This document shows positions 14,841-50,962 of a stretch of DNA of 64,000 nucleotides, in pieces; the stretch's first letter is position 1; each line of letters begins with the position of its first letter. The DNA is from an uncultured Eisenbergiella sp. Its GTDB lineage: Bacteria > Bacillota > Clostridia > Lachnospirales > Lachnospiraceae. The notes below the pieces were generated by a model, which saw nothing but the letters and a program-made list of their open reading frames with translations, made no database searches and was not told the DNA's origin. Location: assembly GCA_947626995.1 (NCBI GenBank), contig CANQUI010000001.1:1-64000 (forward strand), in the 5' to 3' direction. The translations under genes were made by a program, and so were the position numbers.

Positions 14841-14842
14841 CC

Positions 14843-24488: not shown

Positions 24489-25804
24489 CGGATACTACGG
24501 TTTATCAGGTAAAAAACATTTGGGGACAACTGAAAAAAAAGGAGGCGGTGGTGACGGTGCCCGGTTCGAAAAGCATTACCAACCGGGCGCTTTTGCTGGC
24601 GACGCTGGCGGAGGGGGAGAGCCTGTTACAGGGCGCTCTTTTTTCCGACGATTCCCGCTATTTTCTGCAATGTGTGCAGACGCTGGGCTTTGCGGCAAAG
24701 GCGGAAGAAAAAGACAGGACCATCCGCGTTTGCGGGCTGGGCGGGCGCATCCCGAAACGGGACGTATCGCTGTATGTGGGGAGCGCCGGGACGGCGGCCC
24801 GGTTTCTGTCCGCCTTTTTGGGCATGTCCGAGGGCAGCTGGGATCTGGACGCGTCGGAGCAGATGCGGCGCCGGCCGATGGAGCCGCTGTTGGACCGGCT
24901 TTCCTTTCTGGGGGCCGATATCGTATGCGCCGGCCGGCCGGGACATTTCCCCTTCCGGATCATGGGACACGGCGTAAAGGAGAGGGAGGTTTCCGTAAAC
25001 ATCGATCGTTCCAGTCAGTTTTTGAGCGCGCTGCTGATCTCTTCCTGCCTGGCGCCGGAGGGGCTGCGCGTGATCCCGGAAGGCTCTCACGGCATGGCGT
25101 ATGTGGATATGACCGTGGAAATGATGCGGGAATTCGGCGTGTGCTGTGAAAAGAAAGAAGAAGCGGGGCGCATCGTCTATGAGATTGCGCCGGGGCAGTC
25201 CTATCGGGCGCAATCCTATTCGATTGAACCGGACGTTTCGGCGGCGGCCTATTTTTATGCCATGGCCGCGATCCTGGGGATCCGCGTGACGGTAAGGGGC
25301 GTGTTTTTAAACGGCAAACAGGGGGATCTGGCCTTTTTGCGTATTCTGGAGAGGATGGGATGCCGTTTGGAGGAGACCGCAGAGGGCGTGGCGCTGACGG
25401 GGCCGCCCCAGGGAGAGCTGACCGGAATCTGTGCCGATATGAGCGCCTGTTCCGATCAGGCCATTACGCTTGCCGCCATCGCGCCTTTTTCAAACGGGCC
25501 GGTGACCATCCGGGGGATCGGCCACATCCGGTTTCAGGAAAGCGACCGGCTGTCGGCCATCGTGACGGAACTGACCCGGATGGGAATTGCCTGCCAAAGG
25601 AATGAGGACGGCGTCACGATATGGCCCGGCGCCCCTAAGCCTGCGCAAATCGAGACGTACGAGGATCACCGTATGGCCATGGGCTTTGCCCTCACCGGCC
25701 TTCGGGCGCCCGGGATCGGGATCCGGGACTGGCAGTGCTGCAAAAAGACCTTTGAGAATTACTTTGCGGTGCTGGAAGAGACGATCGCAACCCTGATTTC
25801 ATAA
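24485..25804 (+). CDS. aroA: 3-phosphoshikimate 1-carboxyvinyltransferase (EPSP synthase)
   Basis: VPGSKSITNRALLLATLAEGES; GSAGTAARFLSAFL; RRPMEPLLDRL; SSQFLSALLIS; IRFQESDRLSAI; YEDHRMAMGFAL; KKTFENYF. ATGA overlap with the previous gene. Confidence 0.9.
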   Translation: MTDTTVYQVKNIWGQLKKKEAVVTVPGSKSITNRALLLATLAEGESLLQGALFSDDSRYFLQCVQTLGFAAKAEEKDRTIRVCGLGGRIPKRDVSLYVGSAGTAARFLSAFLGMSEGSWDLDASEQMRRRPMEPLLDRLSFLGADIVCAGRPGHFPFRIMGHGVKEREVSVNIDRSSQFLSALLISSCLAPEGLRVIPEGSHGMAYVDMTVEMMREFGVCCEKKEEAGRIVYEIAPGQSYRAQSYSIEPDVSAAAYFYAMAAILGIRVTVRGVFLNGKQGDLAFLRILERMGCRLEETAEGVALTGPPQGELTGICADMSACSDQAITLAAIAPFSNGPVTIRGIGHIRFQESDRLSAIVTELTRMGIACQRNEDGVTIWPGAPKPAQIETYEDHRMAMGFALTGLRAPGIGIRDWQCCKKTFENYFAVLEETIATLIS

Positions 25805-30013: not shown

Positions 30014-30015
30014 AC

Positions 30016-31923
30016 ATGCAGAACAGAAAAACCAATCAGAAAAAAAACAGGATCAATTATCAGAAATTTTACCGAAGAACGGCGCTGGTGGCCTATGATA
30101 TCATCAGCATTGTGGCGTCCAGCTTTCTTGCCCTGCTGTTCCGGTATGATTTTCAGCTGGGAGCGGTGCAGTCGGAATTCCTGCTTTCGGTACGCAACTT
30201 CATCGGGATCAACGTGCTGCTTACTCTTGTGATTTTTTACCTTTTCCGCCTGTACAACAGCCTCTGGGCCTTCGCGGGAGAAACGGAGCTGCAGAATCTG
30301 GTGCTGGCCTGTCTGACCTCCAGCGTGGCCACCGGGATCGGGATCAATTTCTTCCGGGTGGAATCGTCGGCCAAGGCGGTGCCGGACAGTTATTATTTCG
30401 CCTATTTCTTTTTCCTGCTGTTGTTCCTGTTTGCCAGCCGGTTTTCCTATCGTTTCCTGCGCAGCCAAAAGCATAAGATACAAAACCGCAAAAACAGCAT
30501 ATCCGTCATGATCATCGGCGCGGGGGAAGCGGGCAATACGATCATAAAGGAGATTATCACCAGCAATTACTCCACGATGGTGATCCGCTGCATCATCGAC
30601 GACGACCGGAACAAATGGGGGCAGTTCATTCAGGGGATCCGCGTGGTGGGCGGCAGAGAAAAGATCATCGAATCCGTGGATCTTTACAACATCGATGAGA
30701 TCTTTCTGGCGATTCCTTCCGCCACCCCGGCGCAGATCCGGCAGATCCTGGAAATCTGCAAGGAGACCAGCTGTAAGCTGCGTTCCCTGCCCGGCCTGTA
30801 CCAGCTGGTAAACGGAGAGGTCAACGTCAGCAAGCTGCGGGATGTGGAGGTGGAGGATCTTTTGGGCCGGGAGCCGATCCGCGTGGATCTGGATTCCATT
30901 CTGGGCTATGTGCAGAATCAGGTGGTACTGGTAACGGGCGGCGGCGGCTCCATCGGCAGCGAGCTGTGCCGGCAGATCGCCGTCCATAAGCCGGCGCGGC
31001 TGATTATTTTTGATATTTATGAAAACAATGCGTACGATATTCAACAGGAGCTGAAGGAAAAATTCCCGCAGCTGCCGCTCACCGTACTCATCGGCAGCGT
31101 CCGCAATACGAACCGGATCAACGCGGTGTTCGAGACGTGGAAACCGGATATCGTCTACCACGCGGCGGCGCATAAGCATGTGCCGCTGATGGAGGATTCG
31201 CCCAACGAGGCGGTGAAAAACAATGTGTTTGGCACCTGGAAGACGGCCATGGCCGCGGCGGTGAACGGCACGCACAAATTTGTCATGATCTCCACGGACA
31301 AGGCGGTGAATCCCACCAATATCATGGGCGCCAGCAAACGGATCTGCGAGATGATCATCCAGACCTTCAACCGCCATTACGACACGGAATTCGTGGCGGT
31401 CCGCTTTGGCAATGTGCTGGGCTCCAACGGGAGCGTGATCCCGCTGTTTAAAAGGCAGATTGCGGCGGGCGGGCCGGTGACGGTCACCCACCCGGATATC
31501 ATCCGGTATTTTATGACCATTCCCGAGGCGGTGTCTTTGGTGCTGCAGGCGGGCGCCTATGCAAAAGGCGGCGAGATCTTTGTGCTGGATATGGGAGAGC
31601 CGGTACGGATTCTGGATCTGGCCAAAAACCTGATCCGGCTGTCCGGCTATCGGGTGGACGAGGATATCCGGATCGTGTTTACGGGACTGCGCCCCGGAGA
31701 GAAGCTGTACGAGGAGCTTCTGATGAAAGAAGAGGGGATGCAGGATACCCAGAACAGCCTGATCCACATCGGAAGGCCCATTGAAATGGACGAGAAGAAA
31801 TTTTTCGTGCAGCTTAAGGCCCTGGAGGAAGCCTCCAAAAACGAATGTAACGACATCCGTCCCCTGATACGCGAGATCGTGCCCACCTATCACTATCCGG
31901 ACAACGGCGGAAGAAAAGAGTGA
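30016..31923 (+). CDS. pglF: nucleoside-diphosphate sugar 4,6-dehydratase, membrane-anchored (PglF/CapD-like)
   Basis: N-terminal TMs; LVTGGGGSIGSELCRQIAVH; HAAAHKHVPLMEDSPNEAVKNN; STDKAVNPTNIMGASKR (M-x3-K variant typical of PglF/WbpM). Confidence 0.85.
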   Translation: MQNRKTNQKKNRINYQKFYRRTALVAYDIISIVASSFLALLFRYDFQLGAVQSEFLLSVRNFIGINVLLTLVIFYLFRLYNSLWAFAGETELQNLVLACLTSSVATGIGINFFRVESSAKAVPDSYYFAYFFFLLLFLFASRFSYRFLRSQKHKIQNRKNSISVMIIGAGEAGNTIIKEIITSNYSTMVIRCIIDDDRNKWGQFIQGIRVVGGREKIIESVDLYNIDEIFLAIPSATPAQIRQILEICKETSCKLRSLPGLYQLVNGEVNVSKLRDVEVEDLLGREPIRVDLDSILGYVQNQVVLVTGGGGSIGSELCRQIAVHKPARLIIFDIYENNAYDIQQELKEKFPQLPLTVLIGSVRNTNRINAVFETWKPDIVYHAAAHKHVPLMEDSPNEAVKNNVFGTWKTAMAAAVNGTHKFVMISTDKAVNPTNIMGASKRICEMIIQTFNRHYDTEFVAVRFGNVLGSNGSVIPLFKRQIAAGGPVTVTHPDIIRYFMTIPEAVSLVLQAGAYAKGGEIFVLDMGEPVRILDLAKNLIRLSGYRVDEDIRIVFTGLRPGEKLYEELLMKEEGMQDTQNSLIHIGRPIEMDEKKFFVQLKALEEASKNECNDIRPLIREIVPTYHYPDNGGRKE

Positions 31924-31927
31924 GAAC

Positions 31928-32326
31928 ATGAAAATCCATCATATCGGTTATCTGGTCAAAAAACTGGAAAAAGCGGCGGCGGCTTTCGAGGGGCTGGGAT
32001 TTTGCAGGACGGGAGACGTCACCCGCGACGAAGGCAGGGGAGCAGACATCCTGTTTCTGGAAAAGGACGGGTATCAGGTGGAGTTAATCAGTCCCTTCAC
32101 GCCGGAATCGGTGGTGGCGGGCCTGATCAAAACCTATAAAAACGCGCCGTACCATCTCTGCTATGAGGCGCAGGATTTTGAGGCGGACGGGAAGTGGCTG
32201 GAGGAAAACGGCTACACCCGTATCGGAGAGCCCATGGAGGCCCCCGCCATCGGAGGCAGGAAGGTGGTATTTTACCTGCACCCCGCCGCGGGGATGCTGG
32301 AGCTTTTGCAGCAGGCGGCAAAGTAA
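31928..32326 (+). CDS. VOC/glyoxalase superfamily protein (methylmalonyl-CoA epimerase-like fold)
   Basis: MKIHHIGYLVKKLEKAAAAFEGLGF...VELISP...PYHLCYEAQDFE...YLHPAAGMLELLQ. Confidence 0.75.
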   Translation: MKIHHIGYLVKKLEKAAAAFEGLGFCRTGDVTRDEGRGADILFLEKDGYQVELISPFTPESVVAGLIKTYKNAPYHLCYEAQDFEADGKWLEENGYTRIGEPMEAPAIGGRKVVFYLHPAAGMLELLQQAAK

Positions 32327-32351
32327 GAACCACAGAAAGAGGGAAAAGAAA

Positions 32352-33482
32352 ATGGAAGAGAAACGGATTTATCTGTCGTCTCCCACGATGCACGGGGACG
32401 AGCAGCGGTTTGTAAAGGAGGCGTTTGATACCAACTGGGTGGCGCCTTTGGGACCCAACGTGGACGCGTTTGAAAAAGAGATGGAGGCGTATACCGGCTG
32501 CGGCCATGCCGCCGCGCTTTCCTCGGGAACCGCCGCCCTGCACCTTTCTGCGATCCTGGCGGGGGTCAAAGAGGGCGATCTGGTGTTTGCCTCTTCCCTG
32601 ACCTTTTCCGCCAGCGTCAATCCCGCCTGCTATGAAAAGGCGATACCGGTCTTTGTGGATTCGGAGACGGACACCTGGAATATGGATCCTGCGGCGCTGC
32701 GGCTCGCTTTTGAAAAGTATCCGCACCCGGCGGCGGTCATTGCGGTGCATTTGTACGGCACACCGGCTAAGATCGACGAGATCCGGCAGATCTGCCGGGA
32801 ACATGACGTGCCGCTGATTGAGGACGCGGCGGAGTCTCTGGGCGCTTCTCTGAAAGGGCAGATGACCGGGACCTTTGGCGATTTCGGCATTTATTCCTTT
32901 AACGGAAATAAGATCATTACCACCTCCGGCGGCGGTATGCTGGCGGCAAAGGACGAGGCCGTTGTGGCCCGGGCCCGTTTTCTGGCCACGCAGGCCAGGG
33001 ATCCGGCGCGTCATTACCAACATTCCAACATCGGCTATAATTATCGGATGTCCAATGTGGTGGCCGGGATCGGGAGAGGACAGCTTGTGCATTTAAAAGA
33101 GCATATTGCGAAGAAACAGGCCATATACCGTCAGTATCAGGAGGCGTTTGGGGATATCGAAGAAATTTCCATGAATCCCATGAATCCCGACGGCGAGGCC
33201 AACAACTGGCTGTCGTGCATGACCATCGCCCCCGGCTGCCCGGTGACGCCGGTGCAGATCATGGACGCGCTGGCAGAGCACAATATCGAAAGCCGCCCCA
33301 TCTGGAAACCCATGCATTTGCAGCCCGTATTCTCCCATTGTGATCTGATTCAGGTAAAAGAGGGAATCAGCGTTTCGGAGGATATTTTCAACAGAGGTCT
33401 GTGTCTGCCCAGCGACATCAAAAATACGCCGGAGGATATGAACCTGATCTGCGGCATCGTCCGCAGACAGTTTGGCAGATGA
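32352..33482 (+). CDS. epsN: DegT/DnrJ/EryC1 sugar aminotransferase (EpsN/PglE-like)
   Basis: RIYLSSPTMHGDEQRFVKEAFDTNWVAPLGPNVDAFEKEM...EDAAESLGASLKGQMTGTFGDFGIYSFNGNKIITTSGGGML...YQHSNIGYNYRMSNVVAGIGRGQL. Confidence 0.85.
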   Translation: MEEKRIYLSSPTMHGDEQRFVKEAFDTNWVAPLGPNVDAFEKEMEAYTGCGHAAALSSGTAALHLSAILAGVKEGDLVFASSLTFSASVNPACYEKAIPVFVDSETDTWNMDPAALRLAFEKYPHPAAVIAVHLYGTPAKIDEIRQICREHDVPLIEDAAESLGASLKGQMTGTFGDFGIYSFNGNKIITTSGGGMLAAKDEAVVARARFLATQARDPARHYQHSNIGYNYRMSNVVAGIGRGQLVHLKEHIAKKQAIYRQYQEAFGDIEEISMNPMNPDGEANNWLSCMTIAPGCPVTPVQIMDALAEHNIESRPIWKPMHLQPVFSHCDLIQVKEGISVSEDIFNRGLCLPSDIKNTPEDMNLICGIVRRQFGR

Positions 33483-33511: not shown

Positions 33512-34135
33512 ATGTATCAAAAATATGGCAAACGTTTTTTGGATATCGTGATTTCCCTGGCAGTGCTGGTGATTTTAAGTCCCGTTTTGCTGGTGGTGGC
33601 GGCGCTGGTGCGCGTAAAGCTGGGCAGCCCGGTGCTGTTTTGCCAAAAACGGCCGGGCCGGGGAGAAAAAATCTTCCGGCTGTATAAATTTCGAACGATG
33701 ACGGACGAGCGGGACGAGCAGGGCAATCTTTTGCCGGATCAGGACAGACTGACCCGTTTCGGACGGTTCCTGCGCGCCTCCAGCCTGGATGAACTGCCGG
33801 AGTTTTTCAATATCCTGAAAGGGGATATGAGCTTCATCGGCCCCAGGCCGCTGCTGGTGCGCTATCTGCCCTATTACAAACCGGAAGAACGGGCCCGTCA
33901 CAGCGTCCGGCCGGGTCTGACGGGGCTGGCCCAGGTCAACGGGCGCAATGCGCTCAACTGGGAGGCGCGGTTTGCCTATGACCTGCAGTATGTGGAAAAG
34001 TGCAGCCTCGGCCTGGATCTGTCGATCCTGTTTCAAACCGTGGGCAAGGTGTTTCAAAGGGCCGACGTGCTCTCCGGCGCGCAGCAGACGGTGCCGGATC
34101 TGGACGAATACAGAAAGGACATGGTTTCCGGATGA
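33512..34135 (+). CDS. pglC: phosphoglycosyl transferase (PglC/EpsL-like)
   Basis: YGKRFLDIVISLAVLVILSPVLLVVA...GSPVLFCQKRPGRGEKIFRLYKFRTMTD...LPEFFNILKGDMSFIGPRPLLV...RHSVRPGLTGLAQVNGRN. Confidence 0.9.
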   Translation: MYQKYGKRFLDIVISLAVLVILSPVLLVVAALVRVKLGSPVLFCQKRPGRGEKIFRLYKFRTMTDERDEQGNLLPDQDRLTRFGRFLRASSLDELPEFFNILKGDMSFIGPRPLLVRYLPYYKPEERARHSVRPGLTGLAQVNGRNALNWEARFAYDLQYVEKCSLGLDLSILFQTVGKVFQRADVLSGAQQTVPDLDEYRKDMVSG

Positions 34136-35121
34136 AGATAGATGTGTTTGAACGCGGGTTTTCTCCCACACCCATTCAGGAGCTTACGGGCGTCTGCCCA
34201 AAAAACCGGGTCTTTTTGAAGCGGGAGGATTTTCTCCCCTTTTCCTTTGGCGGCAACAAGGTCAGGAAGGCGCGGCATTTCTACCGGGAAATCCAAACGC
34301 AGTCCGCCGATGTGGTGATGACCTACGGCAGCTCCAGTTCCAATCACTGCCGGATCATCGCAAACATGGCCGCCGCCATGGGACTGCCGTGTCATATCAT
34401 TTCCCCGGAGGAAAATTACAAAGACACCCCCAACAGCAGAATGGTGCAACGCTTCGGTGCGGTGGTGGAAAAGGTGCCGCTTTCCGGGATCAGTCAGGCC
34501 ATCGAGGCGCGCAGGGCGGCATATCAAAAAAGCGGAAAAAATCCGTATTTTATTCAGGGCGGCGGCCACGGGGATCCGGGAACGGCGGCCTATGTGGAAT
34601 GTTACGAGGAGATCCGCCGCTGGGAGCAGGAGCGGGAAATTTCCTTCGACTATATTTTCCATGTTTCCGGCACGGGAACGACACAGGCGGGGCTGGTCTG
34701 CGGGCTGCTTGCCTGCGGACGGCAGGCGCACACCCGGATCGTAGGGCTGAGCAACGCCCGTACCCTGGAAAGAGGGCGGCCGGTGGTGGTGCAAAGCGCG
34801 CTGTCCTGGCTGGAACATGTTTATGCCCTGCAGACGGGACGCCGGATTTTGGAAGATACGGTGGAACAGGCCGTCTGCTTTGAGGACGCCTGGCGGCTGG
34901 GCGGATATGGCTGCTATAACAGCGCTGTCCTTGGGACGGTGGATGAAATGATGAAGCGTTACGGCATCCCCATGGATACCACCTATGTGGGCAAGGGGTT
35001 CTGGGCCATGACAGAGTATGTGAAACGGGAAGGACTTACAGGAAAAAAGATCCTGTTTTTGCATACCGGAGGGACGCCGCTGTTTTTTGAGGAACGCCCC
35101 GGAGAGGAGAGGGCAGAATGA
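34132..35121 (+). CDS. PLP-dependent D-cysteine desulfhydrase / ACC deaminase-like enzyme
   Basis: RVFLKREDFLPFSFGGNKVRKARHFYREI...TYGSSSSNHCRIIANMAAAMGL...HVSGTGTTQAGLVCGLL; TGATG coupling with the pglC-like gene. Confidence 0.8.
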   Translation: MKIDVFERGFSPTPIQELTGVCPKNRVFLKREDFLPFSFGGNKVRKARHFYREIQTQSADVVMTYGSSSSNHCRIIANMAAAMGLPCHIISPEENYKDTPNSRMVQRFGAVVEKVPLSGISQAIEARRAAYQKSGKNPYFIQGGGHGDPGTAAYVECYEEIRRWEQEREISFDYIFHVSGTGTTQAGLVCGLLACGRQAHTRIVGLSNARTLERGRPVVVQSALSWLEHVYALQTGRRILEDTVEQAVCFEDAWRLGGYGCYNSAVLGTVDEMMKRYGIPMDTTYVGKGFWAMTEYVKREGLTGKKILFLHTGGTPLFFEERPGEERAE

Positions 35122-36092
35122 ATATTCTGATTCTGAGCGCCGGCACCCGCGATAAAGTGGTGCAGTATTTCAAAAAAGAACTTGCCGGGCAGGGGCGGGT
35201 CATTGCCACGGACTGCAGCAATCTGGCGCCGGCGGTTTATGAGGCGGACGAATTCGTCCTGGTGCCCCGGATCACGGAAGCGGGATATCTGGAAAGGATC
35301 CTGGATCTGTGCCGGGAAAAACGCATCGACGGCGTCCTTTCCCTGATCGATCCGGAGCTGAGCCTGCTGGCCGCGCACCGGGACGAATTTCTGGCCGTGG
35401 GGACGACCCCGATTATTTCGGACCCGGAGGTGGTGGAAACCTGTTTCAACAAGTTTGCCATGTATCAGAAGCTTTGCAGCATGGGATTTCGGACCGCAAA
35501 ATGCTTTCGGGATCCCGACGCGTTTTTCGCCGCGATAGAAGCCGGACAGATGCGTTATCCCGTCTTTTTAAAGCCGGTGTGCGGCAGCGCCAGCTTAAAC
35601 ATCAGCAAGGCCGGCTGTCCCGAAGAAGTGGAGCTGTTATGTAAATTGAACGAAGACCTGCTGATTCAGGAATATATGGACGGACAGGAATACGGCGCCG
35701 ACGTTTATGTGGATCTGATCTCCGGCGAGGTGATCTCTGTCTTTGTGAAAAAAAAGATCAAGATGCGGGCGGGAGAAACGGACAAATCCATCTCCTATAA
35801 GGATCCGGCGCTCTTTGCCCTGATCTGCGATTTCGTAACCCGAATGGGATTTCGCGGCATCCTCGATATCGACCTGTTCCAAATCGGGGACAAGTGGTAT
35901 ATTTCCGAGGTCAACCCCCGCTTCGGCGGCGGGTATCCCCATGCTTACGCCTGCGGCGTGAACGTGCCGGCCATGATTGTAAACAACCTGAGGGGAAAGA
36001 AAAACGAGCCTGCGGTGGGCGCTTATCCGGCCGGCGTGGCGATGATGAAGTACAACGAGATCATGATCCGGGAGATGTCTGACGATGAATGA
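35118..36092 (+). CDS. ATP-grasp domain protein (carbamoyl-phosphate synthase-like ligase fold)
   Basis: MNILILSAGTRDKVVQYFK...CFNKFAMYQKL...YPVFLKPVCGSASLNISKA...LIQEYMDGQEYGADVYVD...ISEVNPRFGGGYPHAYACGVN. Confidence 0.85.
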   Translation: MNILILSAGTRDKVVQYFKKELAGQGRVIATDCSNLAPAVYEADEFVLVPRITEAGYLERILDLCREKRIDGVLSLIDPELSLLAAHRDEFLAVGTTPIISDPEVVETCFNKFAMYQKLCSMGFRTAKCFRDPDAFFAAIEAGQMRYPVFLKPVCGSASLNISKAGCPEEVELLCKLNEDLLIQEYMDGQEYGADVYVDLISGEVISVFVKKKIKMRAGETDKSISYKDPALFALICDFVTRMGFRGILDIDLFQIGDKWYISEVNPRFGGGYPHAYACGVNVPAMIVNNLRGKKNEPAVGAYPAGVAMMKYNEIMIREMSDDE

Positions 36093-37206: not shown

Positions 37207-37257
37207 AAAATGCGAAGGAAGCGCAAAGGACGCGCTGCCAGCGGAAAAGAGGATAAC

Positions 37258-38574
37258 ATGGGACTGTACGAAAAACTGCTGTCGGGGGAAGAAAAGCTGT
37301 CTCTGGTGGGACTGGGGTATGTAGGGATGCCCATTGCGGTGGCGTTTGCCAGAAAGATCCGGGTAATCGGCTATGATTTAAACGAAAGAAAGATCGGGCT
37401 GTATCGCTCGGGCGTGGACCCGACCCGGGAGGTGGGAGACGAAGTCATTGCCCATACGACGGTGGAATTTACCGCGGACGCCGCAAAGCTTCGGGAAGCA
37501 AAATTCCATATTGTAGCGGTTCCCACGCCGGTCAACGACGACCGGACGCCGGATCTGACCCCGGTGGAAGGAGCCAGCCGCATACTGGGGCAGAACCTGA
37601 CGAAAGGCAGCATAATCGTATTTGAATCCACGGTCTATCCGGGGGTGACGGAGGAAATCTGCGTGCCGATTCTGGAAAAGGAATCCGGGTTAAAATGCGG
37701 CGTGGATTTTAAGGTGGGCTATTCACCGGAACGGATTAATCCCGGCGATCAGGTGCACCGTCTGGAAACCATTACCAAGATCGTCTCCGGCATGGACGAA
37801 GAAACGCTGGAGGTGGTGGCGAAGGTATACGGGCTGGTGGTGGAGGCCGGCGTTTATCGGGCGGAATCCATTAAGGTGGCGGAAGCGGCCAAGGTCATTG
37901 AGAACAGTCAGCGCGACATCAATATCGCCTTTATGAACGAACTGTCCATCATCTTTAATAAGATGGGCATCGATACCAGAAGCGTGCTTCAGGCGGCGGG
38001 GACAAAGTGGAATTTCCTTCCGTTTTTCCCGGGGCTGGTAGGAGGCCACTGCATCGGGGTGGACCCCTATTATCTGACCTATAAGGCCGAGCAGATGGGG
38101 TATCATTCCCAGGTTATCCTGGCGGGACGCCGGATCAACGACAGTATGGGCAAATATGTGGCGGAAAACGTGGTCAAGAACCTGATCCGGGCCGATGTGG
38201 CGGTCAAAAGCGCAAAGGTGGCGATCCTGGGCTTTACCTTTAAGGAAAACTGTCCCGATACCCGCAACACCAAGGTGATCGACATCGTAAAGGAGCTGCA
38301 CGAGTACGGCATCCATCCGCTGATCGTAGACGGGACGGCGGACCGGGAAGAGGCCCGGCATCTTTACGGCGTAGAACTGGCGGATCAAAGCGAGATAAAG
38401 GATCTGGACGCGCTGGTCATCGCCGTGGCTCATAAGGAGTTTGAAAAGATGGACAAGGACGCCATCGACGCCTGCTTTAAGCCTTCCAATGAAAAAAGGG
38501 TGCTGGTGGACGTAAAGGGGATTCTGGACCGGAAGCTGTATCAGGAAGATCCTTACATTTACTGGAGACTGTAA
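37258..38574 (+). CDS. nucleotide sugar dehydrogenase (UDP-GlcNAc 6-dehydrogenase, WbpA/TviB-like)
   Basis: KLSLVGLGYVGMPIAVAFARKIRVIGYDLNERKI...SPERINPGDQVHRLETITKIVSG...GLVGGHCIGVDPYYLTYKAEQMGYHSQVILAGRRINDSM. Confidence 0.88.
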   Translation: MGLYEKLLSGEEKLSLVGLGYVGMPIAVAFARKIRVIGYDLNERKIGLYRSGVDPTREVGDEVIAHTTVEFTADAAKLREAKFHIVAVPTPVNDDRTPDLTPVEGASRILGQNLTKGSIIVFESTVYPGVTEEICVPILEKESGLKCGVDFKVGYSPERINPGDQVHRLETITKIVSGMDEETLEVVAKVYGLVVEAGVYRAESIKVAEAAKVIENSQRDINIAFMNELSIIFNKMGIDTRSVLQAAGTKWNFLPFFPGLVGGHCIGVDPYYLTYKAEQMGYHSQVILAGRRINDSMGKYVAENVVKNLIRADVAVKSAKVAILGFTFKENCPDTRNTKVIDIVKELHEYGIHPLIVDGTADREEARHLYGVELADQSEIKDLDALVIAVAHKEFEKMDKDAIDACFKPSNEKRVLVDVKGILDRKLYQEDPYIYWRL

Positions 38575-40055: not shown

Positions 40056-41102
40056 ATGAAAAGAAAAGGGAAGCTGGTCTTTGCTGCGATTCTGGCGGCG
40101 GCAGCGCTTTTGGGAACGACGCTTTTTGGATGCAGCAAATCCGGCGATTATACGGAGGAGATCCGGGAATATCAGGAGAAGCTGGAATCGCTGTCGGCCG
40201 AAAACGAGGCGCTTCAGGCGCAGTTAAACGAGGCGCTGGGGCTTTCCGCTCCCGAGGAGACGGAAACGGAGGAAGAAGCGTCCACGGAAAGCGAGGTTTT
40301 ACCGGAGGAAGGAATCGTATCGGAAAATGAGGCCCCGCCCCAGAACGAAGGAGACGACCTTTGCAAGATCCTGGTGCTGGGCGACAGCATCTGGGGCAAT
40401 TATCGGGACGAAACCGGCGTGGCGGCCAAGGTGGAAACCTATCTGGGCTGGTCCGGTTGTCCCGCCCAGGTTTATAACGCGGCCATCGGAGGCAGCCGCG
40501 CCACCGTCGATTTGGACGACGATCCGAATTCGTTCGGCCCGGCCAGCGACAATTCTCTGGCCAAGATGGTCTCGATCCTGGAGGGGAATACGGATGTGGC
40601 GATGCTGGAAGGAAAACCGGCCTATGAGCCGATGCAGGAGGTGCTGCAGTGCAAGGATGAGATCGACGTGGTCATTCTGGCCTACGGAATGAACGACTTT
40701 TTAAATCAGGCGCCGATCAACAATTCCGACTCGCCCTGGACCGGTTTCGGGACGGCTCTGATCGAGGGAGTCTATAGCATCCAAAGGGTATTTCCCCACG
40801 CGCGGATCCTGATCATTACGCCTACGTACGCCTCCTATTTTTCCATCCCCGTGGCGAATATGGGCGAGAAGGCATTGTATAATTATGCCAGCGTGGCCTG
40901 CGATGTGGCGAAGGGAGAACATCTTCTGTGCATGGACGCGTATAACAATCTGGGGATTGATATGTACAATTCGGACGAATATCTGGAAGACGGCGTACAT
41001 CTGAATGAAAAGGGCAGGGACCTTTACGCCAGAGGCGTGGCGGGCGTATTGCTTTACGGTCAGGCCGGAGAAGTATCCGGCAACGCCATCAATTTTGAAT
41101 GA
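40056..41102 (+). CDS. SGNH/GDSL hydrolase-like lipoprotein
   Basis: Signal peptide with lipobox LFGC; short coiled coil; ILVLGDSIWGNY; YGMNDFLNQ; DGVHLNEKGRDLYA. Confidence 0.75.
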   Translation: MKRKGKLVFAAILAAAALLGTTLFGCSKSGDYTEEIREYQEKLESLSAENEALQAQLNEALGLSAPEETETEEEASTESEVLPEEGIVSENEAPPQNEGDDLCKILVLGDSIWGNYRDETGVAAKVETYLGWSGCPAQVYNAAIGGSRATVDLDDDPNSFGPASDNSLAKMVSILEGNTDVAMLEGKPAYEPMQEVLQCKDEIDVVILAYGMNDFLNQAPINNSDSPWTGFGTALIEGVYSIQRVFPHARILIITPTYASYFSIPVANMGEKALYNYASVACDVAKGEHLLCMDAYNNLGIDMYNSDEYLEDGVHLNEKGRDLYARGVAGVLLYGQAGEVSGNAINFE

Positions 41103-41116
41103 GACCGGAGGATGAA

Positions 41117-42091
41117 ATGGGATATCGGGATCTGAAATTTGACAAAGACAGTATTTTTCTGGTAACGGGAGGCGCGGGCTTTATCGGCTCCAATCTGTGC
41201 GAGGCCATTCTGGATCTGGGCTGTCAGGTCCGGTGCCTGGACGACCTTTCCACCGGAAGCCAGGCCCATGTGGATCTGTTTTTGGGCCGGCCCGGGTATA
41301 CGTTTCTCAAAGGGGATATCAAGGATCCGAAAACCTGTATGGAGGCATGTCAGGGCGTCACCTACGTGCTCAACCAGGCCGCCTGGGGCAGTGTGCCCAG
41401 AAGCATAGAGATGCCTCTTTTTTACGCGCACAACAATATCATCGGCACGCTGAACATGATGGAGGCGGCGCGGCAGTGCGGGGTGAAGAAGTTTGTCTAC
41501 GCTTCCAGCTCCTCCGTGTACGGAGATCATCCGGGGCTTCCCAAGAAAGAGGGGACGGAAGGCAACGTGCTTTCCCCTTACGCGCTGACCAAGCGGACGG
41601 ACGAGGAGTTTGGCAGGCTTTATAAAGAGCTGTACTGCCTGGATACCTATGGGCTGCGTTATTTCAACGTATTCGGCCGCAGGCAGAATCCGGAGGGGAT
41701 GTACGCGGCGGTCATTCCGAAGTTCCTAAAGCTTTTGCTGAGGGGAGAGGCGCCCACCATCAACGGGGACGGCCGGCAGTCCAGGGATTTTACCTATATC
41801 GACAACGTGATCGAGGCGAATCTGAAGGCCTGTCTGGCGCCTTCCGAGGCTGCGGGAAAGGCCTACAACATCGGATCGGGAGGACGGATTTATCTGATCG
41901 ATTTGTATCATACGCTGTGCGACGCGCTGGGCGTACAGATCGAACCGGTCTTCGGACCGCCCCGCAAAGGGGATATCCGGGATTCCAACGCCGATATCAG
42001 CAGGGCGCGGGCGCTTTTGGGATACGATCCGGAGTACGATTTTGAAAAGGGGATCCGGCTGGCCATCGACTGGTACCGGGAGAACCTGTAA
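41117..42091 (+). CDS. NAD-dependent 4-epimerase (WbpP/TviC-like UDP-N-acetylhexosamine(uronate) epimerase)
   Basis: IFLVTGGAGFIGSNLCEAILDLG...NQAAWGSVPRSIEMP...YASSSSVYGDHPGLPKKE...SPYALTKRTDEEFG...RYFNVFGRRQNPEGMYAAVIPKF; GGAGG RBS 5 nt before ATG 41117. Confidence 0.85.
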   Translation: MGYRDLKFDKDSIFLVTGGAGFIGSNLCEAILDLGCQVRCLDDLSTGSQAHVDLFLGRPGYTFLKGDIKDPKTCMEACQGVTYVLNQAAWGSVPRSIEMPLFYAHNNIIGTLNMMEAARQCGVKKFVYASSSSVYGDHPGLPKKEGTEGNVLSPYALTKRTDEEFGRLYKELYCLDTYGLRYFNVFGRRQNPEGMYAAVIPKFLKLLLRGEAPTINGDGRQSRDFTYIDNVIEANLKACLAPSEAAGKAYNIGSGGRIYLIDLYHTLCDALGVQIEPVFGPPRKGDIRDSNADISRARALLGYDPEYDFEKGIRLAIDWYRENL

Positions 42092-42105: not shown

Positions 42106-43035
42106 ATGCGGATGCTTTCCTATGTGAAAAAATTTGTGACGGATCCCAGGATGCGGTTTTTCTATCTGTCCAGGCTGGGCCTGCTAAACGGCATGTCCGA
42201 CGAGAACTATCTGCGCCGGCAGTTTCGGCTCTGGACGGGGGAAGAGCTGAATCTGGAGGATCCCAAAGGGTATAATGAAAAGCTGCAGTGGCTCAAAATT
42301 TACGACCACCGGCCGGAATACGCGGTTATGGTGGATAAATACGCGGTAAAGCAGTGGGTGGCGGATCGGATCGGGGACGAGTATCTGATCCCCACGCTGG
42401 GGGTATGGGATCATTTTTCCCAGATTGATTTCGACAGGCTGCCACAGCAGTTCGTCTTAAAATGCACCCACGATTCCGGCAGTATCCTTGTGGTAAAGGA
42501 TAAGCGGACGATGGATCGAAAGGAAGCCGAACGGAAGCTGGAGAGGTGTCTGCGCCGGAGCTGGTATCAGCCGTATCGGGAATGGGCCTATAAAAACGTG
42601 AAGCCCCGCATCATCGCCGAGGCCTATATGACGGACGAATCGGGGACGGAACTGAAGGATTATAAGGTCTTTAATTTTGACGGCGTACCCAAAATGATCC
42701 AGGTGGATTACGGCCGGTTTACGGAGCATAAACGGAATCTGTATACGACGGACTGGGAATATCTTCCGGTTCGGATCATCTATCCTACGGATCCGGGGCA
42801 TCGGATAAAAAGACCTGCGCAGCTGGAAAAAATGCTGGAGCTGGCCCGGCTGCTGTCGGAGGGATATCCGCACATGCGCACGGACTTTTACTGTGTCGGC
42901 GACCGGATTTATTTCGGAGAAATCACGTTCTATCATGAGTCCGGGATGGCGCGGTTTGATCCGCCTTCCTTTAATCTTGAAATGGGCGGCTGGCTGAAGC
43001 TGCCGAAACGAAACAGACGGGAGGACGTTTCATGA
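42106..43035 (+). CDS. TupA-like ATP-grasp family protein (teichuronic-acid type)
   Basis: NYLRRQFRLWTGEELNLEDPKGYNEKLQWLKIYDHRPEYAVMVDKYAVKQWVADRIGDEYLIPTLGVWD...FVLKCTHDSGSILVVKDK. Confidence 0.8.
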   Translation: MRMLSYVKKFVTDPRMRFFYLSRLGLLNGMSDENYLRRQFRLWTGEELNLEDPKGYNEKLQWLKIYDHRPEYAVMVDKYAVKQWVADRIGDEYLIPTLGVWDHFSQIDFDRLPQQFVLKCTHDSGSILVVKDKRTMDRKEAERKLERCLRRSWYQPYREWAYKNVKPRIIAEAYMTDESGTELKDYKVFNFDGVPKMIQVDYGRFTEHKRNLYTTDWEYLPVRIIYPTDPGHRIKRPAQLEKMLELARLLSEGYPHMRTDFYCVGDRIYFGEITFYHESGMARFDPPSFNLEMGGWLKLPKRNRREDVS

Positions 43036-43952
43036 AATACGGTGTGGTGGTTTTTGGCGTGAAGGATACCACGGAAAATATCGTTTCCTTTATTCAGGAG
43101 CAGCTTCGCCCGGTGGATCTGATCATCACCATCAGCCCCGAGGTCACCCGGCACAACCAGGTATCGGGCTATCAGGGGCTTTCGGGAATGACAAAACGCT
43201 ACGGCATCCCCGTACACGAAGCGGACAGCTATTTTCTCACCGATGAGAAGACGCAGCGGTTTCTTTCCGAAAACGAATTTGAGATCGGAATTTCCATGGG
43301 CTGGCAGCGGCTGATCCCGCCCAGCGTGCTGGAACGCTTCCGGTACGGCATTTACGGATTCCACGGCAACTGCGGCTATCTGCCCTTTGGCCGGGGGCGG
43401 TCTCCCTTAAACTGGTCGATCCTCCTGGGAGATACCCGGTTTAACCTGAATCTGTTCCGCTATGATGAAAAAGCCGACAGCCCCAACGTCTTTGCCACCC
43501 AGATGTTTTCCCTCACGCCCCACGACACCATCCGGACGGCCCAGTATAAGAACATGATCTGTTCCAAAAACCTGATCCGCAGGCTGCTTTTGGCCTATGA
43601 GCAGGGCAATATCCCGATCCGCACCGTTTCGGCGGATTTTGACTCCTGGTATTCCAAACGGACGGCGGAGGATGGGAAGGTGGATTTTCATAAGCGGACG
43701 CGGGAAATCTACAATCTGATCCGGAGCGTCTCCGAGCCTTTCCCGGGCGCCTTCGCTTATCTGGGCGGCGAGCGGATCACGCTGTGGGAGGCCCATCCCT
43801 TCGATGAAATCATGGACTTTTCCGCCTTCCGTCCGGGACAGATCATTGATATTTTCGACGAAAAGCTGATCGTCAGGACGGTGGACGGTTCTCTTTTGGT
43901 GGACCGCTATTCCTGCAGCAAAAAACCGGCGGTGAAGGATGTGCTGGAGTAA
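43032..43952 (+). CDS. formyltransferase-family protein (candidate sugar N-formyltransferase)
   Basis: YGFHGNCGYLPFGRGRSPLNWSILLGDTRFNLNLFRYDEKADSPNVFATQMFSLTPHDT; Fmt/ArnA-like N10-formyl-THF transferase pattern. Confidence 0.7.
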   Translation: MKYGVVVFGVKDTTENIVSFIQEQLRPVDLIITISPEVTRHNQVSGYQGLSGMTKRYGIPVHEADSYFLTDEKTQRFLSENEFEIGISMGWQRLIPPSVLERFRYGIYGFHGNCGYLPFGRGRSPLNWSILLGDTRFNLNLFRYDEKADSPNVFATQMFSLTPHDTIRTAQYKNMICSKNLIRRLLLAYEQGNIPIRTVSADFDSWYSKRTAEDGKVDFHKRTREIYNLIRSVSEPFPGAFAYLGGERITLWEAHPFDEIMDFSAFRPGQIIDIFDEKLIVRTVDGSLLVDRYSCSKKPAVKDVLE

Positions 43953-43963
43953 GGGGTGGCCGT

Positions 43964-44770
43964 ATGATCCAAATGACAGTCAGGCTTGACGATATTACGC
44001 CCGATATGGACTGGGAGCGTTTCTGGGAAGTAAAGGCGCTTCTGGACCGCTATGGCATCAAACCGCTCATCGGCGTGGTTCCGGACAACAAGGACGGGAT
44101 GCTGCGGGGCAGCCCGGATACGCTGCGCCGGGCGGCAGAGCGGATCCGGGAAAAAACCGGAGACGATACGGCCGACGATACCGCTCTTTTCTGGCGGTAT
44201 ATCGGCGGGCTTAAGCAAGAGGGCTGGGAGATTTCCATGCACGGCTTTCAGCATCGGTATACGACAAAGAAAAGGGGATGTTTCCCGCTCAATCCCTTTT
44301 CCGAGTTCGCGGGCCTTCCCCTGCAAAAGCAGGAGGCCATGCTGGCGGAGGGAAAACGTCTGCTTAAGGCCCACGGGATCGAAACGGATCTTTTTATGCC
44401 GCCGGCACATTCCTATGACCGGCGCACGCTGCAGGCCTTAAAGCGGACGGGGTTTGCCGGCGTGACGGACGGATTCGGGAAGAGGCCCTATCGCTGGAAA
44501 GGGCTGACCTTTTATCCGATCTCCTTCCATCTTCGCCGTACGCTGAAAAAAAACAGCGGGTTTTCCACCATGGTGATCCATCCGGCCACCGTTTCCAAAG
44601 AGGAGTTAAAGCGCTACGAATCGTATTTTACGATGCCCCATGCAGAATGGATCCCTTACGGGACTTATCTGCGGCAGGAGCCGGTGCGCGCCGGCCTGTT
44701 TTTGCGCTGCAGGGAGTACGGCATGGCGCTTGGCAAGTCTCTGATTGCCGGTCTGCGGCGGCAGCAATGA
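43964..44770 (+). CDS. DUF2334 polysaccharide deacetylase-like protein
   Basis: VRLDDITPDMDWERFWEVKALLDRYGIKPLIGVVPDN...EISMHGFQHRY...FMPPAHSYDRRTLQAL. Confidence 0.75.
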   Translation: MIQMTVRLDDITPDMDWERFWEVKALLDRYGIKPLIGVVPDNKDGMLRGSPDTLRRAAERIREKTGDDTADDTALFWRYIGGLKQEGWEISMHGFQHRYTTKKRGCFPLNPFSEFAGLPLQKQEAMLAEGKRLLKAHGIETDLFMPPAHSYDRRTLQALKRTGFAGVTDGFGKRPYRWKGLTFYPISFHLRRTLKKNSGFSTMVIHPATVSKEELKRYESYFTMPHAEWIPYGTYLRQEPVRAGLFLRCREYGMALGKSLIAGLRRQQ

Positions 44771-44788: not shown

Positions 44789-45910
44789 ATGGCGGAACCG
44801 ATCCGGGTGCTGCATGTTTTTGGCAACACAAATCTGGGCGGCGCGGAAAGCCGTACCATGGATCTGTACCGGCACATGGACAAAAGCCGGGTACAGTTTG
44901 ACTTTCTGGTACACACAAACCGGGAAGGATTTTTCGATCAGGAGATTTTAAAACTGGGAGGACGGATATTCCGTGTTCCCCGTTTTCGATTCTACAACTA
45001 TTTTTCCTACCGCCGGGCGATGCGCTCCTTTTTTTCACAGCATCACGACTTTGCGGCGGTGGAGGGGCATATCACCAGCAGCGCGGCGGTTTATCTGCCC
45101 ATTGCCAAACGCGCCGGCGTCAGGACGACCATTGCGCACGCCCGCAGCGCCGGGGTGGACCGGGGGCTTAAGGGCGCGCTCACCCGGCTCATGCGCTGCC
45201 GGCTTTCAAAACGCGCCGATCATCTGTTTGCCTGTTCCGAACTGGCGGCGCTTTCGGTCTTTGGCAAACGGGCGGTACGGGAGGGACGGACGGTTTTTAT
45301 TCCCAATGCCATCGACTGTCCGGCGTTTGCCTACGACAGAAAGAAACGGGAAGAAATGCGCGCTGCGCTGGGCATAGAGGACCGCTATGTGATCGGGCAT
45401 GTGGGACGGTTTCATTATGCCAAAAACCACGAATATCTGCTTCGGATCTTCGCCGCATTGTGTCAGAGTCAAGGGGGAGAACGCTTTTTGCTTCTGCTTT
45501 TGGGCGAAGGTTCGGGCATGGAGGCGATGAAAGCGCTGGCCGGACAGCTTGGCATCGCAGAGCAGGTCCGTTTTCTGGGCAATCGGAAAAATGTGAACGA
45601 TTATTATCAGGCCATGGATTATTTTGTCTATCCGTCCCGTTATGAGGGGCTGCCGGCCGCCGTGGTGGAGGCGCAGACCGCCGGCCTGCGCTGCCTGATG
45701 TCGGATACCATCTGCCGGGAGGTGCAGATTACGGATCTGGTGGAACCCAAAAACATTCAACAGCCGCCTCAGGAATGGGCCCTCCGCATTGTCCAAACGG
45801 CGCAGTATCCCCGCCGCAGCCGCGTGAAGCAGGTAGAAGAGGCGGGATTTGACGTGAGCCGTCAGGCAGAGCGGCTGATGCGTTTTTATGAAAGCGGGGT
45901 GTTGGAATGA
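44789..45910 (+). CDS. glycosyltransferase family 4
   Basis: RVLHVFGNTNLGGAESRTMDLYRHMDKSRVQFDFLVHT...YPSRYEGLPAAVVEAQTAGLRCLMSDTI. Confidence 0.85.
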   Translation: MAEPIRVLHVFGNTNLGGAESRTMDLYRHMDKSRVQFDFLVHTNREGFFDQEILKLGGRIFRVPRFRFYNYFSYRRAMRSFFSQHHDFAAVEGHITSSAAVYLPIAKRAGVRTTIAHARSAGVDRGLKGALTRLMRCRLSKRADHLFACSELAALSVFGKRAVREGRTVFIPNAIDCPAFAYDRKKREEMRAALGIEDRYVIGHVGRFHYAKNHEYLLRIFAALCQSQGGERFLLLLLGEGSGMEAMKALAGQLGIAEQVRFLGNRKNVNDYYQAMDYFVYPSRYEGLPAAVVEAQTAGLRCLMSDTICREVQITDLVEPKNIQQPPQEWALRIVQTAQYPRRSRVKQVEEAGFDVSRQAERLMRFYESGVLE

Positions 45911-48298: not shown

Positions 48299-49075
48299 AT
48301 GTTTTCATTTGACGAATACCGGGAGATCATCCGGATCATTCAGGAGAGCGGCAGGGCCGTAGGGTATGAAGAAGCCCTGCGCCGGGACAGTTTTGTGATC
48401 ATGCGTCACGATGTGGAATACAGCGTGGACAGGGCCTACGCCCTTTCTTTGGTGGAGAGCGAAATGGGATTTACTTCCACCTGGTTTTTCCAGTGGACCA
48501 ACAATTCCTATAACATCCTCTCCAGACGCAGTCAGGAGATGATCCGCGACATGCATGAGAGGGGCCATCAGATCGGTCTGCACTATGCGTTAAACGGACT
48601 GACCGATATGCGTCAGGTGCGTCATCAGATCCTCAAGGAAATGCGGATCCTTTCGGATATGTTCGATTTTGAAATCAACCGTTTTTCCGTCCATCGGCCT
48701 ACGCCTGACATCCTGGCGGAAAACATCAAGCTGCCCAATATTTTAAACGCCTATCAGGACGACTTTTTTACGTTTGCGCCGCAGATCACACCGGAGACTG
48801 TGCTGCACGTAAAATATATGTCCGACGCCAATCATATCTGGCGCTACGGCTATCCCGACCGTAGCACCATCCTGGGCAATCCCCGGGTGCAGATTTTGAC
48901 CCATCCGTTTGCCTGGACGCAGAAGGGATACGATAACCGGAACAATTACGCCACGCTGATTCAGGAAAAGTACAAAGAGATGATCGACAGCATCGACGGG
49001 GAGTGCAAGGATTTCTGCGAATACCGGGACGAGTTTTTGTCCGCGCAGCTGATTTTGGAAGAGCGGAAAGGATAA
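48299..49075 (+). CDS. polysaccharide deacetylase-like (NodB-fold) protein
   Basis: FVIMRHDVEYSVDRAYALSLVESEMGFTSTWFFQ...MHERGHQIGLHY...FSVHRPTPDIL. Confidence 0.6.
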   Translation: MFSFDEYREIIRIIQESGRAVGYEEALRRDSFVIMRHDVEYSVDRAYALSLVESEMGFTSTWFFQWTNNSYNILSRRSQEMIRDMHERGHQIGLHYALNGLTDMRQVRHQILKEMRILSDMFDFEINRFSVHRPTPDILAENIKLPNILNAYQDDFFTFAPQITPETVLHVKYMSDANHIWRYGYPDRSTILGNPRVQILTHPFAWTQKGYDNRNNYATLIQEKYKEMIDSIDGECKDFCEYRDEFLSAQLILEERKG

Positions 49076-49078
49076 GAT

Positions 49079-50962
49079 ATGTGCGGGATATGCGGGGTGC
49101 TCTCGCGAAAAGAGGTAACGCTTTCTCAACTGAAAAAAATGAACGATACCCTGTATCACAGGGGGCCCGACGACGGCGGGGAAGAGATTTCCCACTGGGG
49201 TGGCGGATATACACTGGGGCTGGGACAGAGACGGCTTTCCATTCAGGATCTGTCTCCCCTTGGCCATCAGCCCATGTATTCTGCCGACGGGAAGGTAAGC
49301 GTGGTCTTTAACGGAGAGATCTACAATTTCAAAGATCTGCGCCGGGAATTGCCCGACTACCGTTTTTGCTCCTCCTGCGACACCGAGGTGATCCTGGCGG
49401 CCTATCAGAAATGGGGAATCTCGTGCGTGGAGCGCTTTCAGGGGATGTTTGCCATCGCGCTGGCGGATCACGAGAAAAACCGGCTGTATCTGATCCGGGA
49501 CCGGATCGGGAAAAAGCCGCTTTATTATTGGACCCGGGAAGGGGAACTGGCCTTTGGGTCGGAGTTAAAGCCGCTTCTGGCTTATGGCGGTTTTGAAAAG
49601 GAGATCCGCAGGGAGGTGATTCCGCGGTATCTGTATCAGCAGTATCTCAACGCCCCTCAGACCATCTTTCGGGACGTTTATAAACTGGAGCCCGGCGCGA
49701 TCCTGACCTGGGAGGACGGACGGATCCGCGTGGAAAAATACTGGGATATCCGCGACGTGTTTATCGCCGGGCAAAAGGCTTTGGTGACGGATTATGCGCA
49801 GGCCAGAGAGGGGCTCAAGGAGAGGCTTAAGAGGGCGGTGGCCCAGCGGATGATTGCGGACGTGCCCCTGGGGAGCTTTTTAAGCGGCGGCTACGATTCC
49901 TCCCTGGTCACGGCCATGGCGCAGGAACACGCCGCCGGGCCGGTGAAAACCTTTTCCATCGGGTTCTTTGACAAACGCTACGATGAGGCGGAATATGCCC
50001 GCCGGGTTGCAAATTATCTGGGCTGCGACCATACGGAGCTTTATATCGGCGAGCCGGAGATGTATGAACTGGTGGAGAGTATCCCGCGCTATTATGACGA
50101 ACCGTTTGCGGACAGCTCGCAGATCCCCTCCATGCTGGTTTCCATGCTGGCGAAACGGGATGTGACAGTGGCGCTTTCCGGAGACGGCGGGGACGAGTTT
50201 TTCTGCGGCTACGGCCTCTATCAGAAGGTGGCCCAGGCGCAGCTTCTGGATCTGCCGGGGGAGGCGATCTACCGGATCTGCCGCCTGCCGGGTCTGCGCC
50301 GGCTTTCGCTGCTTAACCGGCTCCCGTTTTCGGTGCGGGTGATTGCAAACAACCGGAACCGGGAGACGAAAACCCAGTTCGGCGCCAGCGACTATGTCCT
50401 CTGTGCGCAGCGCATGGCCGCCCACCGGGAGGAGATTCTGCCGTGCCAGTATGAGACGGAGAGCAGCTATCCTACGGATAACTGGCAGATCCGGCGGATG
50501 CTTCTGGATATGGACACGTATCTGCCCGGGGATATTCTCTGTAAGGTGGACCGGGCCTCCATGAAATATGCGCTGGAAACCAGATGCCCGATTCTGGACC
50601 GGGACGTGATGGAGTATTCCTTCCGTCTGCCCCACTCCTTTAAATATGACAAAGGGGATAAAAAGCACATCCTGAAGGATATCGCTTACGACTATCTGCC
50701 AAAAGACCTTCTGGACCGGCCCAAGACCGGCTTTTCGGTGCCGCTTGACAAGTGGCTGCGCGGGCCGTTAAAATCCCGGCTTTTGGATTATGCCCAGCAG
50801 GATTTTTTAAAAAAGCAGGATCTTTTCGACGCAACGTTTACGGCCGGGCTGATCGGGCGCTTTTTGAAAACGGGAGACGCCGGCCCCTCCACAGGCGCCA
50901 ATTATTCCCGTCTTGTCTGGTCCTTTTTTGTGTTCCAGCAGTGGTACGAGCAGTATCTGTAA
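49079..50962 (+). CDS. asnB: glutamine-hydrolysing asparagine synthetase family protein (copy 1)
   Basis: MCGICGVLSRKEV...YHRGPDDGG...RLSIQDLSPLGHQPM...LSGGYDSSLVTAMAQE...ALSGDGGDEFFCGY. Confidence 0.9.
   Translation: MCGICGVLSRKEVTLSQLKKMNDTLYHRGPDDGGEEISHWGGGYTLGLGQRRLSIQDLSPLGHQPMYSADGKVSVVFNGEIYNFKDLRRELPDYRFCSSCDTEVILAAYQKWGISCVERFQGMFAIALADHEKNRLYLIRDRIGKKPLYYWTREGELAFGSELKPLLAYGGFEKEIRREVIPRYLYQQYLNAPQTIFRDVYKLEPGAILTWEDGRIRVEKYWDIRDVFIAGQKALVTDYAQAREGLKERLKRAVAQRMIADVPLGSFLSGGYDSSLVTAMAQEHAAGPVKTFSIGFFDKRYDEAEYARRVANYLGCDHTELYIGEPEMYELVESIPRYYDEPFADSSQIPSMLVSMLAKRDVTVALSGDGGDEFFCGYGLYQKVAQAQLLDLPGEAIYRICRLPGLRRLSLLNRLPFSVRVIANNRNRETKTQFGASDYVLCAQRMAAHREEILPCQYETESSYPTDNWQIRRMLLDMDTYLPGDILCKVDRASMKYALETRCPILDRDVMEYSFRLPHSFKYDKGDKKHILKDIAYDYLPKDLLDRPKTGFSVPLDKWLRGPLKSRLLDYAQQDFLKKQDLFDATFTAGLIGRFLKTGDAGPSTGANYSRLVWSFFVFQQWYEQYL

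Follow-up and report, generated by a model that had tools for sequence, protein, structure and literature searches.

In lipid A modification, ArnA formylates and ArnD deformylates (PMC12650200, PMC12748117). In Pseudomonas aeruginosa PAK, GalNFmA is an O-antigen sugar described with wbpO/wbpP, and in the O6-type O antigen WbpO/WbpP, the counterparts of TviB/TviC, lead from UDP-GlcNAc to UDP-GalNAcA, with an N-formyl galactosaminuronic residue present (PMC4773840). The TupA-like domain of Campylobacter jejuni Cj1438C acts in capsule synthesis, where it amidates glucuronic acid at the C6 carboxylate (PMC11800379). HypX carries a modified formyltransferase triad, and formyl transfer is still proposed for it (PMC6802093).

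The locus compared here with these systems lies in a window of 64,000 nucleotides from an uncultured Eisenbergiella sp. (GCA_947626995.1, contig CANQUI010000001.1, positions 1 to 64,000). The window is a large surface-polysaccharide locus of the Lachnospiraceae, with many GT4 transferases, AsnB-like amidotransferases, a FlaA1-type dehydratase, a LegC-type aminotransferase and a phosphoglycosyl transferase. A sequence-only reading had singled out three plus-strand genes as a coupled module, a TupA-type ATP-grasp protein (42106-43035), a formyltransferase (FT, 43032-43952) and a DUF2334 protein (43964-44770). An ORF check and Pfam searches bear out all three reading frames, their coordinates and their enzyme families. 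The coupling is also genuine in the source genome, where the end of TupA and the start of FT share 4 bp (ATGA at 43032-43035) and 11 bp separate the FT stop from the DUF2334 start. The relevant features of the window are:

29932-31923, 4,6-dehydratase, predicted bacillosamine-type sugar route
32163-33482, LegC-type aminotransferase, predicted bacillosamine-type sugar route
37210-38574, + strand, TviB/WbpO-like UDP-GlcNAc C6-dehydrogenase, predicted UDP-GlcNAc to UDP-GlcNAcA (TviB NF011729, TIGR03026)
41099-42091, + strand, TviC/WbpP-like SDR, predicted C4-epimerase, UDP-GlcNAcA to UDP-GalNAcA (NCBIfam TviC NF011728)
42106-43035, + strand, TupA-like ATP-grasp, probable uronic-acid C6 carboxylate amidoligase (PF14305)
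43032-43952, + strand, FT, ArnA-like formyltransferase of a variant subfamily with Gly for the catalytic Asn (PF02911, PF00551 marginal, ArnA match)
43356-43415, + strand, codons of the variant FT motif GFHGNCGYLPFGRGRSPLNW, residues 109-128 (FT frame translation)
43964-44770, + strand, DUF2334 protein, predicted CE4-fold de-N-acylase (PF10096, predicted structure)
44789-45910, + strand, GT4 glycosyltransferase, the next gene after DUF2334 (PF00534/PF13692)
48299-49075, + strand, second deacetylase-like protein (weak Polysacc_deac_1 PF01522, 14.6 bits, under cut-off)
49079-50962, + strand, AsnB-like amidotransferase, candidate uronamide maker (TIGR01536, 464 bits, passing the cut-off of 267)

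The product of 37210-38574 scores 486 bits against TviB NF011729 (cut-off 592) and 388 bits against the nucleotide-sugar dehydrogenase model TIGR03026, passing its cut-off of 189.8, and the product of 41099-42091 has TviC NF011728 as its top NCBIfam match (E=5e-82, under its cut-off). Going by family, the two enzymes would together convert UDP-GlcNAc to UDP-GalNAcA, as WbpO/WbpP do in the Gram-negative LPS pathway.

Judged by its sequence, FT most likely works in the cytosol as a folate-dependent N-formyltransferase with the two-domain build of ArnA, and belongs to a variant subfamily with predicted activity. It has the architecture Formyl_trans_N plus Formyl_trans_C, the N domain being marginal (PF02911, E=1.8e-17; PF00551, 24.6 bits, slightly short of the 26.1-bit cut-off), and its fold match spans about 300 columns. 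The closest sequence match is the ArnA formyltransferase (8gjh_A, E=1e-28), and the ArnA formyltransferase domain is also the top PDB fold match of the predicted structure (pLDDT 84), in which the active-site loop is poor (pLDDT below 50 at residues 117-129). Among 397 genomes of the same bacterial family, 14 others hold relatives at 59-75% identity, while no further match exceeds about 30% and the next best is at about 28%, a gap that marks FT as a discrete subfamily. Its closest named relative is an 87% identical FT from an Eisenbergiella MAG, and the nearest named relatives are Lachnospiraceae. No FT relatives were found in the viral contigs searched, and the plasmids searched gave only distant matches, at about 29% identity or less.

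The active-site motif had been flagged as unusual, and it is indeed a real and conserved feature of the subfamily, since GFHGNCGYLPFGRGRSPLNW is kept in 15/15 FT genomes and in all 39 aligned members. G109, H111, G115, Y116 and RGRSPLNW are invariant in this alignment, and the mean column identity of the subfamily is 74-77%. The catalytic ArnA residues N102, H104 and D140 align with G109, H111 and D149, respectively, and S106 aligns with N113. An alignment of the catalytic Asn, His and Asp, the check proposed in the sequence-only reading, thus gives a divided answer: His111 and Asp149 are invariant across the aligned members, and the position of the Asn is occupied by Gly109 in 39/39. Position 113 is Asn, or Ser in a minority of members, and the loop is two residues longer than that of ArnA, with the insertion directly after N113. 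FT therefore resembles the N-terminal UDP-L-Ara4N formyltransferase domain of ArnA in its two-domain type, its best sequence and fold match and its retention of His104 and Asp140, but differs from it in the change of Asn102 to Gly, of Ser106 to Asn or Ser, and in the two-residue insertion. Further, FT is a stand-alone protein, and its neighbour is a TviC-type epimerase rather than a UDP-GlcA decarboxylase. Gly also replaces the catalytic Asn in six further formyltransferase-like proteins from this bacterial family (L018, L019, L020, L022, L024 and L027, with GFHPA, GFHPT or GAHGS), so that the Asn-less state is not unique to the FT subfamily.

The DUF2334 protein is most likely a metal-dependent de-N-acylase of CE4 fold, as predicted from family and structure (PF10096, E=7.1e-46; PF01522, 26.6 bits, passing the cut-off). 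Its earlier description as a probable deacetylase fits well with the evidence, as D9, D10, H93, H97 and H206 are invariant among 38 homologues, corresponding to the CE4-type Asp-Asp, His-x3-His and late catalytic His, and the model (pLDDT 93.4) has a CE4 (NodB-like) fold, with polysaccharide deacetylases and the deformylase ArnD as its closest PDB structures. By TM-score, ArnD leads the top matches (0.63), and by E-value the generic deacetylase 3rxz comes first; a search of solved structures by sequence matched none. The protein begins at its metal motif and hence has no signal peptide, and is presumably cytosolic. Although fold and metal-site residues are those of ArnD and the CE4 polysaccharide deacetylases, identity to them is about 10-16%, the Pfam family is another one, and many DUF2334 loci lack any formyltransferase.

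The TupA-like protein is intact, matches PF14305 over nearly its full length (E=3.4e-76, positions 1-238 of 241) and carries residues conserved in homologues, and no solved structure was matched by sequence. Cj1438C is its closest described counterpart, likewise a TupA-like ATP-grasp of capsule synthesis located beside a uronic-acid pathway (PMC11800379), although the TupA discussed here is a stand-alone protein. The amidoligase activity of Cj1438C makes a uronic-acid amidoligase the natural reading, and by this analogy the protein is probably an amidoligase of the uronic-acid C6 carboxylate.

How firmly these genes belong together was examined in 60 FT relatives flanked on both sides of FT by some 10 kb or more, the loci being drawn from the closest 80 of 255 relatives found and hence a biased sample. 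TviB, TviC and two GT4 genes are each present in 60/60 of these full-flank loci, so the C6-dehydrogenase and C4-epimerase pair (TviB-TviC/WbpO-WbpP) is linked to FT throughout. One of the two GT4 genes, that at 44789-45910, is a conserved partner of both FT (60/60) and DUF2334, and its orthologue lies directly 3' of DUF2334 in many FT-less loci. DUF2334 itself is found in 32/60 and absent from 28/60, and TupA is found in 2/60; in all, TupA was seen close to FT only in the window and in L044, L047 and L074. TupA is a lineage-specific insert outside the conserved linkage. Where DUF2334 and FT share a locus, they are within 200 bp of each other in 38 of the 44 loci, with DUF2334 before or after FT, and the presence of DUF2334 switches at least 8 times along the FT tree. 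The LegC-type aminotransferase occurs in 49/60 full-flank loci, the second deacetylase-like gene in 21/60 and the AsnB-like gene in 19/60. No amine-making enzyme is common to every FT locus: 28/60 lack DUF2334, and several of these also lack the LegC-type aminotransferase. The three genes are not conserved as the module that had been claimed. That claim had been staked jointly on the formyltransferase triad and on conserved linkage, and each stands in part, with His and Asp kept and Asn replaced by Gly, and with linkage absent for TupA and partial for DUF2334. The conserved linkage, which the earlier account did not mention, is that of FT to TviB-TviC and, separately, of DUF2334 to TviB-TviC.

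Co-occurrence among the 397 genomes, which are largely one per genus and for which the p values ignore shared ancestry, points the same way. FT is present in 14/44 genomes with TviC against 1/353 others (p=7e-14), so that 14 of the 15 FT genomes carry TviC, and DUF2334 is present in 31/44 against 1/353 (p=1e-34). The raw association of FT with DUF2334 (p=2e-10) was rejected as evidence of coupling, as it vanishes once TviC is held constant: among TviC-bearing genomes, 11 have both, 3 FT only, 20 DUF2334 only and 10 neither (p=0.50). FT and TupA are likewise independent in this set (p=0.75). Four of the 15 FT genomes lack a PF10096 gene altogether, and the order TviC-DUF2334-GT4 recurs in FT-less genomes; the DUF2334-only loci examined contain no formyltransferase-like ORF near DUF2334. 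A hidden deacetylase in the FT-only genomes was considered and dismissed, as these have no PF10096 gene and their above-cut-off PF01522 matches are on different contigs or distant from FT; the sampled unidentified ORFs of DUF2334-less FT loci include no deacetylase. In the ten TviC-bearing genomes with neither gene, no orthologue of the GT4 at 44789-45910 was seen near TviC in the stretches examined, from which it seems that this glycan type always has one decoration or the other, or both.

On this evidence, we give roughly even odds (about 0.5) to a modular slot for decorating genes next to the UDP-GalNAcA pathway, in which TupA, FT and DUF2334 are independent decorations rather than an obligate pathway. 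The locus would make a surface polysaccharide for which TviB/TviC supply UDP-GalNAcA, and the stretch from TviC to the GT4 would be the slot, filled by FT alone, DUF2334 alone or both side by side, sometimes by a GT10-like transferase and rarely by TupA. Going by gene linkage, FT would N-formylate an amino sugar of the repeat unit, probably the HexNAcA residue from TviB-TviC, acting through His111 and Asp149 with the remodelled loop standing in for the lost Asn, on which sugar N-formyltransferases ordinarily depend. DUF2334 would de-N-acylate this HexNAcA residue, either as such or in lipid-linked form, and TupA would amidate its C6 carboxylate. With FT and DUF2334 together, N-formyl-galactosaminuronic acid is a plausible product. 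The substrates and the order of steps in this scheme are all inferred.

The sequence-only reading had instead suggested deacetylation followed by formylation or amide ligation. Spelled out for this locus as an obligate sequence, DUF2334 would remove the N-acetyl group from UDP-GalNAcA, FT would formylate the amine freed at C2, yielding UDP-GalNFoA, and C6 would be amidated by TupA or AsnB. FT and DUF2334 do adjoin TviC and are usually adjacent when both are present, FT loci show no alternative origin for a 2-amine, and GalNFmA occurs naturally with wbpO/wbpP (PMC4773840). However, the existence of FT-only loci means that deacetylation before formylation cannot be obligatory; the independence of the two genes in TviC-bearing genomes, the four FT genomes without PF10096, the 28/60 loci without DUF2334 and the 20/31 DUF2334-bearing TviC genomes without FT all speak against it, as does the lack of linkage between TupA and FT. 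Such an obligate order is thus unlikely. The reverse order, in which FT formylates an amino sugar nucleotide to allow its transfer and trapping and DUF2334 then deformylates the lipid-linked sugar to a free amine, would mirror ArnA and ArnD, and these are, respectively, the top match of FT in sequence and fold and the highest-TM match of DUF2334 (0.63). A deformylase would be expected to be confined to formyltransferase-bearing loci, but 20/31 TviC-bearing genomes with DUF2334 lack FT, and the DUF2334-only loci examined were free of formyltransferase-like ORFs; FT-only loci exist too, and ArnD is one among many CE4-fold matches, 3rxz having the better E-value. We regard this order as improbable. 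Its narrower form, a Gram-positive ArnA-ArnD counterpart operating where both genes are present, with transient N-formylation of a galactosaminuronic acid by the Asn-less FT and deformylation on the lipid carrier yielding a free amine beside a carboxylate, and hence a zwitterionic glycan, in gut Lachnospiraceae, appears improbable as well.

FT could also act on another sugar, formylating the 4-amine of UDP-QuiNAc4N (bacillosamine-type) in place of the acetyltransferase PglD, with DUF2334 unrelated. This would agree with the independence of FT and DUF2334, with the LegC-type aminotransferase of 49/60 full-flank FT loci, in none of which a PglD-like acetyltransferase was recognised, and with the 4-amine specificity of ArnA, the closest relative. 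Yet FT adjoins TviC rather than the aminotransferase gene, which is missing from its usual place in at least three FT loci (L035, L045 and L102) and was not seen within 10 kb in several others, and the PylC-like ATP-grasp is a competing acylator, which leaves the proposal doubtful. Finally, the universal Gly for Asn, the loop insertion and the N-domain Pfam score under the cut-off could mean that FT is no longer a formyltransferase, being another folate- or sugar-binding enzyme or a pseudoenzyme. Loss of activity is nevertheless a poor bet given the invariant His111 and Asp149, the 74-77% mean column identity, the recurrence of Gly at this position elsewhere among the family's formyltransferase-like proteins, and HypX, for which formyl transfer is proposed despite a modified triad (PMC6802093).

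The points of interest are the conserved variant formyltransferase subfamily and a clear modular slot rather than new chemistry. FT represents a previously unremarked and sharply bounded formyltransferase subfamily without a residue held to be catalytic, and, if active, would offer a clean natural test of whether the Asn is dispensable. An active FT would also extend the glycans of gut Gram-positive bacteria to N-formyl uronic acids, and perhaps to uronic acids with a free amine. In the slot reading, gut Lachnospiraceae would vary one surface-glycan sugar through swaps of decorating genes at a single position.

Several observations around the slot deserve mention. In many relatives a gene of about 307 aa lies between TviC and FT; first taken for a possible TupA, it proved GT10-like, and this GT10-like (fucosyltransferase family) gene occupies the TviC-FT slot in about 22 relatives (e.g. 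L052:9064-9984). The window also carries PseG, PseI and PseF pseudaminic-acid genes in a Gram-positive gut bacterium (12736-15547, - strand), each passing its NCBIfam cut-off; a link of FT to these genes was discarded, with NeuB/PseI in 0/60 full-flank FT loci. At 34132-36092, a D-cysteine desulfhydrase-family PLP enzyme is directly followed by the PylC-like ATP-grasp, and the pair may produce an unusual amino acid and join it to the amine of a sugar. An ORF at 24260-25804, inside the polysaccharide locus, resembles EPSP synthase (AroA), an assignment made by eye only. Around 30 of the 80 FT loci hold, 6-9 kb downstream of FT, a DUF1574 protein, an AMP-binding ligase and a second formyltransferase (e.g. 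L105:16468-19241, L086:19517-20377). This second formyltransferase is about 286 aa long (PF00551, E=4e-20), an MBOAT protein is often near, and the group resembles a dlt-like acylation system equipped with a formyltransferase of its own. One FT locus is directly adjoined by an AlwI-type restriction-modification system (L118:16159-19973).
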